From the NCBI GenBank assembly GCA_003165095.1, contig PLSH01000066.1, positions 25,860 through 31,206 of the forward strand: a DNA stretch of 5,347 nucleotides, written 5' to 3'. The translations under genes were made by a program, and so were the position numbers. Source of the DNA: Acidobacteriaceae bacterium (GTDB lineage: Bacteria > Acidobacteriota > Terriglobia > Terriglobales > Acidobacteriaceae). The notes under the pieces were generated by a model, which was not told the origin of the DNA, made no database searches, and was given only the letters and a program-made list of their open reading frames with translations. This document shows, one piece after another, positions 1-5,209 of the stretch. Positions within the stretch are counted from its first letter, which is position 1. Each line of letters opens with the position of its first letter.

Positions 1-114
1 GGCCGTTTGCCGGCTCGGATCGAGATCGACCCTGGCGATAGTGAGCAGCAGCGCCAGTTCCGGTCTGTTGTTTATGGCTGCAGGCAAAGCGACACCTCGA
101 TCAGGAGTTCCCAT
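1..114 (-). CDS. N-terminal fragment of a probable nucleotidyltransferase-family protein (PF14907-like), cut by the window edge
   Basis: An ATG at 114 opens a frame that stays open for 38 codons to the left edge. The translation starts MGTPDRG and continues with PELALLLTIARVDLDPSRQ. The pattern 'PE-x-LLL-x-x-AR-x-x-LDP' resembles the opening helix of the uncharacterised nucleotidyltransferase family PF14907 (NTP_transf_5), as I remember it; no catalytic residue falls inside the fragment. The frame is closed upstream by a TAG within the last codons of the peptidase gene, and this ATG is the only standard start. No strong ribosome site precedes it. It lies 49 bases after the peptidase stop on the same strand, so it is probably co-transcribed. 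PF14907 proteins are known near PqqD-like and S24/S26 peptidase genes in RiPP-like loci, which fits the neighbours. With only 38 residues, the family call is tentative. Confidence 0.5.
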   Translation of the reverse strand, partial: MGTPDRGVALPAAINNRPELALLLTIARVDLDPSRQTA

Positions 115-163
115 TCCGATTTTCTTGCGATGGAGATATGGCGGGAAAAGACGGCGACGGTGT

Positions 164-676
164 TCAAGTGCGTTCTAACTTTTCGATGGTCACTGGCGAT
201 GAGTTCGCCCAGGACGCATGCAAATTCCAGGAGCCGCGCAGGCGCCTGCTCAAATAGAGCGTGACACGCGTGAAGAGATCCGAGCGGCGCAACATCAATG
301 ACATGACACGCTGCCAGAATGCAAGTTCAATCCGGACGGCGCGGCCTGCGCGGGAAATGCCGATCACCTGTCCTACGACATCAGATGCATTCACTGGAGG
401 ATCGAAGCAAGGCAGCGCGTCTCCGCGCAGGATCAGCCAATCGCCGGACACGTGCCTGATGCGATGCGCGGTGAGCATTCCATCGCGCCGGTATAAGGCA
501 ATCTGTTCCGGCTGCAATTTGGACGGGGCACAGTGCTGAACGGTGACCACATCGCCGGGCCAGAGCGCAGGCAACATGCTGGCCCCGGCAACCCGGAGGC
601 GAACCTCGCCGGAGATGCGAGCTACATCGCAGGTCAACTCGCAACACACGGAGTGACGTTGTGTCTCTTGATTCAT
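164..676 (-). CDS. S26-family (signal peptidase-like) serine peptidase, stand-alone, Ser-His type
   Basis: The 170-residue product carries the S24/S26 peptidase core. GASMLPALWPGDVV (residues 31-44) holds the probable nucleophile Ser33 in the usual S-M-x-P box, followed by the GD turn. LTAHRIRH (68-75) supplies His71 where bacterial signal peptidase I has lysine. LILRGDAL (81-88) and the following Asp92 and Asp99 match the RGD-x-x...D box. This Ser-His layout is that of SipW/archaeal/ER-type signal peptidases, not of LepB. No N-terminal or clear C-terminal membrane segment is visible; residues 112-145 are Arg-rich and amphipathic, so the protein may be cytoplasmic or only peripherally bound. 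The ATG at 676 lies 12 bases after the peptide stop, without a good ribosome site, which suggests translational coupling. The obvious substrate is the 60-residue peptide (leader removal) or another product of the locus; both are inference. A non-catalytic S24-like role is less likely because the dyad is intact. Confidence 0.85.
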   Translation of the reverse strand: MNQETQRHSVCCELTCDVARISGEVRLRVAGASMLPALWPGDVVTVQHCAPSKLQPEQIALYRRDGMLTAHRIRHVSGDWLILRGDALPCFDPPVNASDVVGQVIGISRAGRAVRIELAFWQRVMSLMLRRSDLFTRVTLYLSRRLRGSWNLHASWANSSPVTIEKLERT

Positions 677-688
677 GCGCGGTTCAAT

Positions 689-871
689 CTATGAGGCCTT
701 GCGGTTATAGTGGCACGATCCCTGAGTTACCTGCACTTTGCCGCAGGAAAGAGCCAAAGTCTCGAAGACCCGCTCATGGCGCACCTCGGGCTTCTGGTAC
801 GGCTTTTTGGCCGTGGGCTTCTGCTCGGGCGTAGTTCGATTTTTCCGTTCCTGCTCCGATTCACTCATCAT
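689..871 (-). CDS. Small RiPP-precursor-like peptide with YxxP leader motif and two-cysteine tail
   Basis: The peptide has 60 residues. Residues 1-24 are hydrophilic and charged (MMSESEQERKN...). Residues 25-37 read YQKPEVRHERVFE and contain a Y-x-x-P motif, the element that PqqD-like RRE domains bind in lasso-type leaders. The tail, from Thr38 to Ser60, holds Cys43 in SCGK and Cys53 in GSCHYN, with several Thr/Ser, and no Asp or Glu after Glu37. There is no signal peptide or membrane segment. GAGG at 874-877 precedes two adjacent ATG codons; spacing is 2 bases to the first (871) and 5 to the second (868), so the true product may be 59 residues. It sits between the secreted giant (47-base gap) and the S26 peptidase (12-base gap). 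The hydrophilic leader, motif and neighbours support a modified-peptide precursor. The modification is unknown, as no maturation enzyme other than the peptidase is fully inside the window. An alternative is a small regulatory or cofactor-carrying protein. Confidence 0.75.
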   Translation of the reverse strand: MMSESEQERKNRTTPEQKPTAKKPYQKPEVRHERVFETLALSCGKVQVTQGSCHYNRKAS

Positions 872-882
872 GACCTCATGAT
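867..882 (-). promoter_or_regulatory. Inverted repeat enclosing the ribosome site and start codons of the small peptide gene
   Basis: ATCATGA and TCATGAT form a perfect 7-base inverted repeat separated by two bases. In the mRNA a 6-bp stem AUCAUG/CAUGAU could close an AGGU loop, which places the core of the Shine-Dalgarno sequence in the loop and both AUG codons in the stem. The stem is AU-rich and weak. It could tune translation of the peptide or be a DNA-binding site, or it could be chance produced by the repeated ATG/TCATGA words. Confidence 0.3.
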
Positions 883-918: not shown

Positions 919-3900
919 CTACGGGTTTGACTGCTGCGCCTGCACAGCGTCGATAGTGACCGCAGAGCCGGCAGCGCAATTGCTGCTGGTCGAACCGTTC
1001 GGACCGCCCGCAGCCGCGCCGTCGAGATTCACGAGATAGATTTGAGAGGCGCCTGTCGTAGTGGCGTCGTTGTCGACCACGATCCCGCCCGTCGCCCAGC
1101 ATCCGGGGGAAGCAGGGGTTGTGACATTCAAGCCTGTGCCGGAGATGGCGATCGCCGACGGATTAGTGACGTTAAAGGACAAGATGCAGCCGTGCCCGGC
1201 AGAGGAGGTGCATCCGCCCACCTCCGACTGGTTCAAGCTGAAGAAAACGTAGTCGGTGCCGCTGGTCGTTTCTGTTGCACTTGCAGTGCAAGCGCCGTTA
1301 CAGAATTCCGAGAGAGGAGACGGATACGGATGAGCGCCAGTTGGTGTGAGCACAGCATCGTAAGTGGACCAGGCGCCTGTCATGAAGCCGCCTGAGATGG
1401 CAACCTTATACAACGCCCCCGTATTTGTGCCTCCTGTGTTTCCGGCTACATAAAGGTTTCCCGAGTCAGTTGAGGATTCAAACCAGACGTTGTCGAACAT
1501 TCCCGCGTACAGATAATATCCAGTGCCTCCTGTTCCGAGTGGAACGACCCCAGGGGCTCCCGGTTGCCCGACGGCCACCAGGTCTGTGAATGCGGTGGAA
1601 AAACCGTAGAGCGCGTTAGCCCCGGGCTCACTGTACGAGCCGCTAGTGGTGACAAATGCGAAAACTGCTCCTTTGTTGCTATCGACCAGAGGCGCGTCGG
1701 CAATGGCATCTCCGATATTCGCCGTGCCGTGGATAACACCAGTAGTTGTTCCCGCGTTCCCGGTGCCCACGGAATGGAGCGTTCCATCCAGGTCGCCCAC
1801 GAAGACGTATCCAGAGGTGGGATCGTAGATGGGTGACGAAATTTTATACCCAGCGTCGAGCGTTACCGGCCATGAGGTGGTGACGGTCTCCTCCGGTGTG
1901 CCAAAGAAAACTCCTTTGAACTGATGCAGCAGGCCGCTGTCATCTCCAACGTAGAGCGCATCGTCGCTGGCGTAGTCGTAAAAAGGAGCTGAGATCGAGT
2001 CGTCGTCGCCGTCTTCGAGGGGTATGACGACCATGCACGGGGCGGTGCAAGCTCTATAGGTGGATGTTGTCTCGCTGGTAATGGCTGCCGGTGAAGTGAT
2101 GGAGCTGGTAGCCGATTTCCATTTAAGCAGGACCAGACTTGCGTTTGCGCCGTTCGATTGCATGAACGCAACCTGGGTGCCGTCCGCGGAGATGATGGGT
2201 GAATTGGTGACCGCGTGACCTGTGCCCGCGTTATAGGCCCAGTAAACTGTGGGGTTTGAGGTTTCGCAGGCTCCGGTGCCAACATAGATATTATTGTAGG
2301 CAATGATGTTTGCGGCGCCCGTTCCGCCCGCTTGCCCTGCCGGGTAAACGACAAAGTCGTTGGCACAGCTTGCGGTAGTCAGACTTGCCCCATACTTGGC
2401 GGGATAGGCATTGGGCTGGACCGTGGGAATTGCGCCACCGTCAAAGCTGACGGCTCCGGTAAGAGCTGAAAAATCCGTGACGGATGCGGAGTAGCTGTTC
2501 CCAGCGGCCCCAGCGGTTTTAGCGGTGAAGGTCACGTCCCCGCTTGCCGGCGAATTCGCGGCGGCCGTAATGACCGCGCTCGCGGTGGAGTTGGCGTTGA
2601 CGGCTGTGGTGATGTTCGAGGCAACTACCGAGGCCGCATCGTAGGTTGTGCCCGTCCAGTACGCGAAGGTTGGCGGCGATGCCGTACCCGAGGTGGTGCC
2701 GTTCGTTCCGGCCGTGCCCGCGCCGAGGGTTGTGCCCTGCCATGCGAAATTGCTCAAAGTCTCGGTAGTGGCGATGGTGTCGGCGCCTGTCCCGGGCGTT
2801 GCTGCGGTCACGGTGACAACTCCGGCACTTGAAGTTGCGGTAAGAACCGTTGTACTGATATTCCGCGTAATTGCAGCGGCGAGGTTGGTGGCATCGTCTG
2901 CCAAGACGCCATCGACGGCAAAGTCCGTACCCGTATTCGTTCCGGTCCCGCCCGTTAGTGTGCCGCCGGCCCATGCAAAGAATCCGGCCGTGCTGGGGGT
3001 CAAACCGATGCTGTTTCCAGCGGTGCCTGCTGTAATGGCGGTAAGCGTCACGGTTTTGGTGCTGGAGGAAGCAGTGACGCCGACGGCTGCCGGGCAGAGA
3101 TTGATCGCCGCGGCAAGGTTGCCCGCCAGGGTTGTCGTGCTGCTGCTCGTCGCGTAAGTTCCGGCGGTGGAACTCGTGCAGCTGTTGGAGCCGGCATTGC
3201 CGCCGGTCACGGTAGCCCAGCTGAAGATGCCGGTGTTGTTCGTTGCGTTGACCGTGAGAAAGGGCCCCGGTGTGGGGTTTGTAACCGTAAACGTGTTGCC
3301 AGAGGCATAGCTGGCGGTAACGCCAACGGGGTAGGTAGTCTGGCAGCTTGTGCTCATGATGGCGGCTTCCAGGTTCGAAGCTACCTGGTAGGTCGGGTTC
3401 GTCGCGCTACTGGCTGTGGCAAAGGTGCCAGTCGTCGAGCTTGTGCACGCGTTCGTACCGGTGGCGCCGGCGGTCACAGTACTCCAAGTGAAATGAGTTG
3501 CGGTCTCGCCTGTGCCCAGTGTCAGGGTGGGGTAAGCACCGAGCGTGGTGTTGGTAATAGTCACGACGTTGCTGGCCACGGTGGAGGTTACGCCCACGCC
3601 TGAGTAGGTACCGACGCAGGCATTGATCGCAGAATTCAGATTGCCGGCAACTGTATCGCCTGTGGTGTCGACGGGGTCGATGAGGAAGGTGCCGGTAGTA
3701 GCGCCGGTGCATGTGTTGGTGGTTCCCACGGCAATCGAGGAACCGGAAGCGGGGCTCAAGGTAAAGACGCCGCTGTTGTTAACGACACTCCAGGTTAGAG
3801 CTGCGCCGGAGTAGTTGGTAACCGTAACCTGACCGCTAGCGCCACTGGTGGCAGCCGTTGCGGTAATGTTAGGAACTGCCGTTGTCCCTGTGCCGTAGCA

Positions 3901-5070
3901 AGGAACTGTAGTGCCGCACGAGCTACTGGTGGCTGTAATTGCTGCAGCGATGTTTTGAGCGTACTCGAGGTTGGTTGTGCCCCCCCCTCCTGGGCGGTCG
4001 ATGCAGTTGGCGGTGCCACCGCAGTTGGAAGCAAAGGTGTATTCCGTCGCGCCGATTGTGAGGGTATCGGAGTTTCCGGGACGGCCGCTGACCGTTATGG
4101 TACCCGTTCCTCCGCTGCCGCCCGTCAAGGTCAGCGTATTTGAATTCAGGCCGTTTGTGATTTTGACGGTCTGGCCGGAGGCCGGCCCGACGCTAGATGC
4201 AGTAATGGTTCCCGTCGCGTGCGCGGCCGTGGCATTGGTCGTCAGGGTCAATACGTTCCCATTGACTCCGTTTGTGATGGCGATGGTAGGAGCCGTGGTC
4301 GAGGTGGGAGAGGCTGCGACCGTTCCAATGGCGCTCGCCACCGTCGCGTTGGTCGTCAGACTCAGGGTCGCGCCATTCACCACGGTGATCGTGCTGCTCG
4401 CTTGAGGCAAGCTCGAAAAGGTTCCGGTCCGTGTAGCTTTCGTGGAGACGCTGGCCGTCAGAGCCACTCCGTTGATCGTCGCCGTCTGGCCGCTGGTGGG
4501 GTTGCCGGTGAAGGTTCCGGTTTCGCTGGCCGCGGTCGGGGCGCTGGCGTCAAAGGTCATGCCGTCGATGGTGAATTGCGAGCCACCGCTGATGGAGGAT
4601 GAGCTAAGCGTCCCCACCGCAACGGTCAAAGCTGCTGCGGTGCTTACGCTGCCCAGGCTCTGGCTCCAGTCCTTTTTCACGCCTTTGCTTGAGGTCCTCA
4701 GAGAGTTCCAGCCCATCAGAGGCTCTCTGATTCCATCGGAGAAGTTGTCCTTTTCGGATTTGCGAAAGGCACCGGTGGCCGCCACCACGGGTGGCGTGCC
4801 CATGTGCCGCTTTGCCTGCTGCATCTGGTAGCGGGGATCGCTGGTGACTTTGAGCCATTTGTCGAGCTCCCCGTTCTTGACCGCGTCTTCCCTGGTGCCG
4901 GGATTGGAGAAGAGCAAGTGGTGGTACGTCCAATCGTCTACGAAGCCGCCCTTCGGCGCAGACGATCCGGTGGCATCTTGCGCCTGCATGGGAGAGATGA
5001 ACGCGGCTATCATGGCCACCAGAAAGGCGGTTGCAAAAAACCTGAATGAAAACGGATTGGCATTCAGCAT
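919..5070 (-). CDS. Giant exported repeat protein with C-terminal beta-propeller-like region
   Basis: The 1383-residue product has, in order: a signal peptide (residues 1-30); a mature N-terminal module (about 31-140) with FVDDWTYHHLLFSNPGT and KWLKVTSDPRYQM, which reads as a folded, conserved-type domain; four short NG-containing beta repeats (about 184-330); six longer Thr/Ala/Gly-rich units (about 331-880); and a C-terminal region (about 890-1365) with propeller-like strands. Twenty cysteines occur, all after residue 340, as expected for an oxidised extracytoplasmic protein. No LPXTG, PEP-CTERM or other sorting tail is seen; the end is VQAQQSNP. I chose ATG 5070 because the signal peptide starts there. 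The longer reading begins with TTG at 5184 and would bury the signal peptide behind 38 hydrophilic residues; in-frame ATGs at 5130 and 5094 have the same fault. GGGAG lies 10 bases before ATG 5070. The function is not recognised; a surface or adhesion-type role is inference from architecture. It is probably the first gene of an operon with the small peptide and the S26 peptidase. Confidence 0.88.
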   Translation of the reverse strand: MLNANPFSFRFFATAFLVAMIAAFISPMQAQDATGSSAPKGGFVDDWTYHHLLFSNPGTREDAVKNGELDKWLKVTSDPRYQMQQAKRHMGTPPVVAATGAFRKSEKDNFSDGIREPLMGWNSLRTSSKGVKKDWSQSLGSVSTAAALTVAVGTLSSSSISGGSQFTIDGMTFDASAPTAASETGTFTGNPTSGQTATINGVALTASVSTKATRTGTFSSLPQASSTITVVNGATLSLTTNATVASAIGTVAASPTSTTAPTIAITNGVNGNVLTLTTNATAAHATGTITASSVGPASGQTVKITNGLNSNTLTLTGGSGGTGTITVSGRPGNSDTLTIGATEYTFASNCGGTANCIDRPGGGGTTNLEYAQNIAAAITATSSSCGTTVPCYGTGTTAVPNITATAATSGASGQVTVTNYSGAALTWSVVNNSGVFTLSPASGSSIAVGTTNTCTGATTGTFLIDPVDTTGDTVAGNLNSAINACVGTYSGVGVTSTVASNVVTITNTTLGAYPTLTLGTGETATHFTWSTVTAGATGTNACTSSTTGTFATASSATNPTYQVASNLEAAIMSTSCQTTYPVGVTASYASGNTFTVTNPTPGPFLTVNATNNTGIFSWATVTGGNAGSNSCTSSTAGTYATSSSTTTLAGNLAAAINLCPAAVGVTASSSTKTVTLTAITAGTAGNSIGLTPSTAGFFAWAGGTLTGGTGTNTGTDFAVDGVLADDATNLAAAITRNISTTVLTATSSAGVVTVTAATPGTGADTIATTETLSNFAWQGTTLGAGTAGTNGTTSGTASPPTFAYWTGTTYDAASVVASNITTAVNANSTASAVITAAANSPASGDVTFTAKTAGAAGNSYSASVTDFSALTGAVSFDGGAIPTVQPNAYPAKYGASLTTASCANDFVVYPAGQAGGTGAANIIAYNNIYVGTGACETSNPTVYWAYNAGTGHAVTNSPIISADGTQVAFMQSNGANASLVLLKWKSATSSITSPAAITSETTSTYRACTAPCMVVIPLEDGDDDSISAPFYDYASDDALYVGDDSGLLHQFKGVFFGTPEETVTTSWPVTLDAGYKISSPIYDPTSGYVFVGDLDGTLHSVGTGNAGTTTGVIHGTANIGDAIADAPLVDSNKGAVFAFVTTSGSYSEPGANALYGFSTAFTDLVAVGQPGAPGVVPLGTGGTGYYLYAGMFDNVWFESSTDSGNLYVAGNTGGTNTGALYKVAISGGFMTGAWSTYDAVLTPTGAHPYPSPLSEFCNGACTASATETTSGTDYVFFSLNQSEVGGCTSSAGHGCILSFNVTNPSAIAISGTGLNVTTPASPGCWATGGIVVDNDATTTGASQIYLVNLDGAAAGGPNGSTSSNCAAGSAVTIDAVQAQQSNP
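976..2403 (-). other. C-terminal beta-propeller-like region of the giant protein
   Basis: Residues about 890-1365 differ from the repeats: more aromatic, more Asp, fewer Thr. Blade-like strand pairs recur: NSPIISADGTQVAFM (956-970), SAPFYDYASDDALYVGDDSG (1027-1046), SSPIYDPTSGYVFVGDLDG (1078-1096) and ADAPLVDSNKGAVFAFV (1124-1140). The S/A-P step falls at 958, 1029, 1080 and 1127, a spacing of 71, 51 and 47 residues, typical of propeller blades. Later segments SGNLYVAGNTGG and GALYKVAISGG resemble PQQ-type blades. Close cysteine pairs at 1008/1012, 1257/1261 and 1287/1295 suggest local disulfides. The blade count and subclass cannot be fixed by eye. Confidence 0.5.
2431..4071 (-). repeat. Six diverged tandem protein repeats of about 80-115 residues
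   Basis: Units begin near residues 334, 450, 538, 628, 710 and 789. The consensus is a TN-x-C-T...TGTF start, an AxNLxAAI helix, a strand pair GVTA...VTxT, a TxGxxGN-type turn and a closing F-x-W strand. The closing tryptophans of units 1-5 are at 427, 529, 618, 700 and 777; the sixth unit lacks this Trp. Units 1-4 carry cysteines at the start and about 28-35 residues later (350/385 and 356/391, 454/485, 542/576, 631/659), whereas units 5 and 6 have none. The helix-plus-'TAGxxGNxI' pattern recalls repeats in phage tail and bacterial surface proteins. The repeats are diverged at DNA level, so this is an old array and not a recent slippage product. Confidence 0.7.
3980..3987 (-). repeat. Homopolymeric G8 tract inside the giant gene
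   Basis: Eight C on the plus strand (G8 in the coding strand) encode part of a Gly361-Gly364 run at the first long repeat unit. Such tracts can slip. A one-base change here would truncate the protein and remove all but the signal peptide, N-terminal module and short repeats. Confidence 0.9.
4081..4530 (-). repeat. Four short NG-type beta repeats of about 32-39 residues
   Basis: Related segments GQTATINGVALT, SSTITVVNGATLSL, APTIAITNGVNGNVLTL and GQTVKITNGLNSNTLTL put an Asn-Gly turn at residues 200, 232, 267 and 306. Each is flanked by a T-G-T-x or G-T-x strand (184-187, 215-218, 249-251, 286-289, 323-325). They form a distinct array upstream of the longer units and end at the SGRPGNSDTL linker near residue 330. 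A stalk or beta-solenoid spacer is a reasonable structural inference; no enzymatic motif is visible. Confidence 0.6.
4981..5070 (-). other. Signal peptide of the giant protein
   Basis: Residues 1-30 have a short n-region with Arg10, a hydrophobic core FFATAFLVAMIAAFI (11-25) and a c-region SPMQA with likely cleavage after Ala30, before QDATG. The type is Sec/SPI: there is no lipobox cysteine and no twin arginine. It decides the choice of start codon at 5070. Confidence 0.85.
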
Positions 5071-5102
5071 GGCTCGAATTCTCCCGTCTTGCATTGACAC
5101 AT
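5064..5102 (-). CDS. Possible 12-codon cysteine-containing leader ORF overlapping the giant gene start
   Basis: ATG at 5102 opens a 12-codon frame, MCQCKTGEFEPC, that ends in TGA at 5064-5066, four bases inside the beginning of the giant gene (ATGCTGA). GGGAG at 5109-5113 is spaced 6 bases from this ATG, a better ribosome site than that of the giant gene itself. Three of twelve codons are Cys. It may couple or gate translation of the downstream start, as overlapping leader ORFs do elsewhere. Chance is possible in so short an ORF. Confidence 0.3.
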   Translation of the reverse strand: MCQCKTGEFEPC

Positions 5103-5131
5103 TCGTATCTCCCTGCGCCGAAGGTTTCATT

Positions 5132-5163
5132 TCGCAGCCTGAAGGTCCAATTGAAGGCTGCGA
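5132..5163 (-). promoter_or_regulatory. 9-bp perfect inverted repeat in the 5' leader of the giant gene
   Basis: TCGCAGCCT and AGGCTGCGA pair without mismatch across a 14-base loop. It is GC-rich enough to fold stably in mRNA. No T-run follows on the minus strand, so it is not an intrinsic terminator. It stands about 20 bases upstream of the GGGAG of the leader ORF and could be an mRNA-stabilising or regulatory stem, or a protein-binding palindrome. Confidence 0.45.
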
Positions 5164-5209
5164 GCCGCCTTTTGCCAGGGTCAAATCGCTGCGAGATGAG
5201 AAGACACTC

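Follow-up and report, generated by a model that had tools for sequence, protein, structure and literature searches.

A 5,347-nucleotide stretch of the genome of an Acidobacteriaceae bacterium (contig PLSH01000066.1, positions 25,860 to 31,206; hereafter the window) appears to hold the left part of a cassette for a ribosomally synthesized and post-translationally modified peptide (RiPP). The RiPP-type cassette is real and patchily distributed, and we consider it probable that it is an acidobacterial relative of the systems that make linear polyphosphorylated peptides (LPPs), with an added radical-SAM step, the C-terminal serine of the peptide as the likely target of a kinase, and a beta-propeller protein as partner. 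LPPs are encoded by the lpp clusters of Bacillota, to which their authors call them restricted (Popov et al. 2026, PMC13381572). In the parts of that paper on which we draw, LPP leaders follow the consensus YxxPxVLxHQxIxFETxxS, a SpI-like peptidase cleaves after the threonine of FET with the help of a RiPP recognition element (RRE), and a kinase polyphosphorylates Ser3 of the core. Our literature search, judged by titles and abstract openings, found no description of the cassette presented here.

Four genes follow one another on the minus strand of the window: an open reading frame (ORF) of 1421 residues, a gene for a 60-residue peptide, a gene for a 170-residue peptidase and the 38-codon start of one that runs off the window (Table 1). 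The peptide gene lies 12 bp from the next start, and the peptidase gene 49 bp. The original prediction, made from the letters of the window, had joined the last three into one cassette on account of their shared strand and short gaps, and this holds; it had left out the upstream 1421-residue ORF, which is a probable cassette partner. The program TRF reported no tandem repeats in the window.

The 60-residue peptide with its YxxP motif, as first proposed, is a genuine gene product family: 220 proteins matched it at E<=0.01 among 5.8 billion, the window's own counted. The cluster of identical peptides, P0001, represents 54 contigs, the longest of 115,733 bases. Relatives with the peptidase also conserve the peptide, contrary to one of the outcomes that had been named as refuting the original prediction. 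In an alignment of 47 rows including the window (A1), Y25, P28, V35-F-E-T38, A40-L41, C43-G-K45, C53 and S60 are invariant, and the first 20 residues are mostly variable. A motif of the YxxP type also occurs in LPP and lasso leaders (PMC13381572, in the parts cited). When searched against the PDB, the peptide profile found nothing up to E 10.

To describe the predicted core, we took the leader to end after F-E-T and counted only cores of at least 15 residues, which gave 96 distinct sequences. From the 121 peptide hits we discarded rows that lack the regular motif, namely L128, L181 and the L159 copy at 8065; L044 was excluded by the first motif pattern and readmitted under a wider one, and the core counts omit L046, which is cut by a contig end, and L148, whose 12-residue core has one Cys and a Ser end. 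The core is 22 residues long in 77 of the 96 (range 21-26). Its framework is nearly fixed, with Ala at +2 (96/96), Leu at +3 (95/96), Cys at +5 (96/96), Gly at +6 (91/96) and Lys at +7 (95/96), while +4 is Ala in 41, Ser in 33 and Thr in 15. Two cysteines are present in 94 cores and three in the other 2; counted back from the end, the eighth residue is a Cys in 85. The positions between the cysteines and just before the terminal serine are variable. Serine is the last residue in 95 of the 96 cores, a count mildly biased by a peptide model derived from Ser-ending members (A1); the exception, L045 from a Myxococcales metagenome-assembled genome (MAG), ends in Gly. A terminal Ser is also present in 119 of the 120 database homologues listed. 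Since no other hydroxyl residue of the core is nearly invariant, this serine would be the natural site for a kinase.

In order to define what accompanies the peptide, genome contigs were scanned with the peptide alignment, yielding 46 loci, mostly from MAGs named Acidobacteria, Acidobacteriaceae or Terriglobia; a few are named Proteobacteria, Burkholderiales, Ramlibacter, Endomicrobiales or Myxococcales and may in part be misbinned. ORF comparison, with Pfam searches of representatives, gave families of radical SAM plus SPASM, PqqD, NTP_transf_5, ABC ATPase and ABC-2 permease proteins, and one further family with no Pfam assignment and a median length of 295 residues. To these loci we added 60 genome regions and later 24 more, collapsing repeat regions by peptide sequence. 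Models built from the first 46 loci were then applied to 63 distinct instances (window excluded) flanked by 5 kb or more on each side, a neighbour being any match within 7.5 kb, centre to centre, on either strand.

Four genes recur beside the peptide: a kinase-like gene, a PqqD gene and a radical-SAM gene are each found in 54 of the 63 instances and an S26 peptidase gene in 51, with all four together in 51 and none of them in 8. NTP_transf_5 and the large-ORF family each appear in 30, the permease in 13 and the ABC ATPase model, which does not separate ABC types, in 15. The RiPP-type cassette that had been suggested for the window is thus borne out, with its YxxP leader and S26-type peptidase and, in relatives, PqqD-type RRE and NTP_transf_5 genes. 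CxxxCxxC is present in 91 of 92 radical-SAM hits, and among 92 kinase hits a P-loop pattern is found in 81, the His in 78 and Asp-Glu or Asp-Asp in all. The kinase is predicted to have a PEPCK/HprK-type fold: all 50 best VIA matches of the structure search were PEPCK, with HPr kinase not among them; HPr kinase was present in the Foldseek list, and the sequence profile (A3) matched PEPCK at E 0.13 only. PqqD matches to designed Cake proteins were taken as repeat artefacts. An MsbA-like ORF in L001 scored 276.1 bits of 602. In L002 unrelated genes separate S26 from the kinase, and this locus therefore did not contribute to the gene order.

The peptidase of the window carries the intact Ser-His pair ascribed to it, Ser33 within G-A-S-M-L-P and His71 within HRI, together with an RGD...D box, and no membrane segment is apparent by eye. 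Among NCBIfam models it comes closest to archaeal-type signal peptidase I (31.1 bits, cut-off 51.85), and it reaches 20.1 bits with Peptidase_S24 in Pfam, below the cut-off of 23.3. BLASTP relatives (E<=0.01) are present in 38 of the 46 loci, and the Ser, His and GD..D patterns all occur in 90 of 98 S26 hits. The peptidase matched nothing in the PDB up to E 1 and no viral sequence, and its single plasmid match was weak (33.1% identity).

The large ORF upstream of the peptide probably encodes a secreted protein that ends in an eight-bladed beta-propeller. Among the best 50 structural matches of this domain the closest are eight-bladed designs, and the best natural ones are ODA16, BamB and YxaL; the Foldseek list is headed by unrelated large assemblies, with TM-scores by query length of at most 0.46 among the best 50 rows. 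No Pfam sequence family was assigned, and neither TRF nor self-BLAST revealed internal repeats in the ORF. The family has a median length of 633 residues.

The propeller and the peptide are associated at the genome level. Genome counts in the class and family sets are lower bounds, since the three scans behind them took no more than 15, 16 and 3 first-look candidates per genome to scoring; peptide-positive genomes number at least 55 of 399 in the class set and at least 83 of 398 in the family set, with 16 of 347 in the phylum set, ten of these 16 being partial matches (E 1e-8 to 3e-4). The best peptide-profile match in all three sets was G001, at 106.9 bits each. A propeller match was present in 43 of the 399 genomes, and 38 of these also have the peptide; in fetched stretches of the other five, a loose search for Y..P ORFs with a Ser end returned only implausible candidates. 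G154 carries several propeller genes distant from its single detected peptide, which adjoins ABC genes.

It might be argued that the propeller is a mere neighbour by common descent and that the peptide, once exported, works by itself as a signal or bacteriocin, as would fit the ABC ATPase matches near the peptide, some of them in instances that also have a propeller gene, and the 17 of 55 peptide-positive genomes with no propeller match. We regard this as unlikely: in six loci the propeller and the peptide are the only cassette models (L029, L035, L116, L130, L159 and L167), and 16 of the 17 peptide-only genomes carry a divergent peptide type, IYET or CGKLP, the remaining one being G058.

A second alternative, to which we give somewhat less credence, is that the peptide is precursor to a PQQ-like cofactor or ligand, converted by PqqD and the radical-SAM/SPASM enzyme for use by the secreted propeller protein. 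Eight is the blade number of quinoprotein dehydrogenases, and the nearness of the propeller to eight-bladed designs, the association of peptide and propeller even as orphan pairs, and the conserved ALxCGK framework of the core all speak for it. Against it, no quinoprotein occurs among the best 50 structural matches, whose best natural members are those named above, and the core positions between the cysteines vary freely. To our knowledge, a kinase and an NTP_transf_5 protein are not part of PQQ biosynthesis. A bolder proposal, for which we hold out slimmer hope still, is that a radical-SAM-modified, tail-phosphorylated peptide is the ligand or cofactor of one dedicated secreted eight-bladed propeller, the pair having arisen separately from PQQ and the quinoproteins.

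Returning to the LPP-related pathway that we favour, the gene content of the relatives, the conserved residues, the peptide-propeller association and the predicted folds lead us to infer the following route, including the order of its steps. The YxxP leader would be bound by a PqqD-type RRE, whose gene should lie past position 1 provided that this genome is arranged like those of its relatives, and the radical-SAM/SPASM enzyme would alter the 22-residue core, most likely via one or both conserved cysteines. The PEPCK/HprK-fold kinase would phosphorylate the C-terminal serine; an NTP_transf_5 enzyme, encoded in roughly half of the loci, could in turn decorate the serine phosphate. The RRE would present the leader to the S26 peptidase for a cut after F-E-T, like that by LppS in LPP, after which the product would be exported and would act on, or together with, the secreted propeller protein of the neighbouring gene. 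If this is true, the logic of signal peptidase, RRE and kinase extends into Acidobacteriota and is joined there to radical-SAM chemistry on a short core with two cysteines. The C-terminal serine would then be a named, testable phosphosite, and the genomic link to a secreted propeller would offer a first handle on the role of such phosphopeptides, a question left open in the parts of PMC13381572 cited here.

Some observations weigh against this pathway. Neither a kinase nor a PqqD or radical-SAM gene lies within the window, which stops at position 1 on the side where they would be expected. The terminal serine is retained in peptides that have no kinase close by, and therefore the data offer no contrast between kinase and serine. 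The P-loop and His patterns have the gaps noted above among kinase hits, and S26 hits lack the His pattern in 7 of 98 cases and all motifs in 1. The propeller gene is absent within 7.5 kb in 18 of 48 main-type instances. In none of the examined loci does NTP_transf_5 directly follow S26; therefore, either the order here is unusual or the 38-codon fragment is something else. Two details of LPP are also missing. The spacing between P and F/Y/I is 7 residues in 102 of 102 distinct strings, found with a pattern that allowed 5-9 residues, and not the P-x9-F of LPP leaders. Core position +3 is Leu where LPP has its phosphosite, Ser3, and it is the terminal Ser that is conserved instead.

The 38-codon fragment itself had been labelled a probable NTP_transf_5 protein. 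Such genes do exist in relatives, but the label is weakly supported for the fragment: of the eight cassette models built from related loci NTP_transf_5 scores best, in the correct N-terminal register, at just 2.6 bits, and Pfam and NCBIfam gave no match. We take this as a hint, not proof.

Table 1. Features of the window and their coordinates
Feature	Position	Strand	Basis
Gene start, first 38 codons, possibly NTP_transf_5 (PF14907)	1-114	minus	weak score, 2.6 bits to local model
Stand-alone S26/S24-type serine peptidase, 170 aa, predicted leader peptidase	164-676	minus	Ser33, His71; BLASTP relatives
Precursor peptide, 60 aa	689-871	minus	YxxP leader, FET motif, two-Cys core with Ser end; ORF, homologues, alignment A1
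Predicted core, 22 residues, LALSCGKVQVTQGSCHYNRKAS	692-757	minus	Cys43, Cys53, C-terminal Ser60; statistics of 96 distinct cores
F36-E37-T38, predicted leader cleavage after T38	758-766	minus	invariant in A1; cleavage by analogy with LPP
Y25-x-x-P28, predicted RRE (PqqD) binding motif	788-799	minus	Y and P invariant in 47 rows
"BIG" partner protein, ORF of 1421 aa, probably secreted	919-5184	minus	homologues beside peptide in related loci; genome co-occurrence
Beta-propeller domain at the C-terminus, probably with eight blades, residues 919-1421 approximately	922-2430	minus	
Ser/Thr/Gly-rich region, about residues 181-900	2485-4644	minus	repeat-like by eye only
Probable signal peptide, residues 39-68, end AQA-Q	4981-5070	minus	translation read by eye
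Probable start of large protein, Met39	5070	minus	

Further observations concern single loci. In L181 (G008, contig 274) the cassette's peptide copy is broken by a stop codon and the other cassette genes match over long open stretches; elsewhere in this genome, two open peptides adjoin propeller genes. L139 and L141, which lie about 3 kb from each other in a single locus, are near-identical divergent peptides with the core end CNAAPRRS. Two homologues of window positions 922-2487, P0348 and P0330, have the propeller fused with a PP2C-type phosphatase domain, possibly a signalling version, and in L025 (6531-9341) a single open frame of 937 residues covers both NTP_transf_5 (156.6 bits) and the propeller protein. 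An apparent propeller-peptide fusion in L158 (one 1075-residue open frame) was rejected, as the last part of the propeller gene is out of frame there. In 11 of the 46 loci (L007, L012, L015, L019, L027, L028, L031, L032, L033, L038 and L039), a neighbour of 336-986 residues is encoded past the radical-SAM gene on the other strand and, judged by eye, resembles an HD-GYP plus GGDEF regulator.

Among known systems, lasso peptides were the first comparison made for the window, and it was not borne out. A lasso-type or lasso-derived phosphopeptide would account for the YxxP leader, PqqD, HprK-like kinase and NTP_transf_5, all common to paeninodin-type lasso clusters (PMC8498205, PMC9266682 and PMC13381572, as far as cited), and yet we consider it highly improbable. 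In 14 genomes examined, no B2 transglutaminase-like peptidase gene was found on the peptide's contig and no asparagine-synthase-like macrolactam synthetase gene within 10 kb of the peptide, an absence that holds for the assembled part, MAG contigs being short. For tailoring, the cassette has instead a PEPCK/HprK-fold kinase and a radical-SAM/SPASM protein, the latter standing in place of the lasso enzymes in 54 of 63 instances. Asn_synthase (PF00733) matches occur in all 14 genomes; on contigs that carry the peptide, the closest lie about 10 kb (G085) and 15 kb (G297) from it. B2 (PF13471) occurs in 3 of the 14, always on other contigs. Away from the peptide, G002 (contig 131) and G243 (contig 10) each have a B2 match about 1 kb from an Asn_synthase match and may therefore carry separate lasso-like loci.

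Paeninodin and pseudomycoidin share more specific traits with the cassette. The cited parts of PMC8498205 and PMC9266682 describe related kinases that act on a C-terminal Ser, with a nucleotidyltransferase also acting in pseudomycoidin, and the likeness extends to the lasso-type RRE; the difference is that no macrolactam synthetase or B2 peptidase was found in this cassette, which has a radical-SAM enzyme instead. As in radical-SAM/SPASM-modified RiPPs of the sactipeptide or ranthipeptide type, a CxxxCxxC enzyme lies beside a Cys-containing precursor in relatives (54/63). The SynChlorMet cassette (TIGR04248-TIGR04251) resembles ours in its PqqD-like protein, radical-SAM/SPASM proteins and ScmC, the top NCBIfam match of the one kinase scanned. 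Single representatives stayed far below the curated cut-offs (ScmC 35.6 against 125, ScmD 20.6 against 100, ScmE 97.5 against 400, ScmF 57.5 against 400), and a literature search for "SynChlorMet" found no paper. PQQ and mycofactocin systems likewise combine a PqqD-type RRE with a radical-SAM/SPASM enzyme; here, scores fall below the equivalog cut-offs (PqqE 100 against 381.35; mycofactocin 129.4 against 265), and the cassette has a kinase and an S26 peptidase.

The closest comparison is with LPP. Both have a discrete RRE, a leader peptidase resembling archaeal-type signal peptidase with catalytic Ser and His (Ser33 and His71 in the window), an HprK-like kinase and a YxxP...FET leader, the RRE and kinase genes being seen in relatives (54/63 each) and lying beyond the window's edge. 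LPP clusters further include an NTP transferase and an MsbA-like transporter; possible counterparts here are NTP_transf_5, near 30 of 63 related instances, and the L001 ORF and ABC ATPase matches (15 of 63) mentioned above. The terms "radical SAM" and "Acidobacteri" have no occurrence in the main text of PMC13381572, nor do "signal peptidase", "S26", "S24" and "LexA" in PMC10885120. The present cassette differs in belonging to Acidobacteriota and not Bacillota, in adding a radical-SAM/SPASM enzyme and a propeller partner, and in its short core of nearly fixed length with two cysteines. It works like LPP but is not filed as LPP, because it misses the spacing and Ser3 details and adds the radical-SAM/SPASM enzyme.
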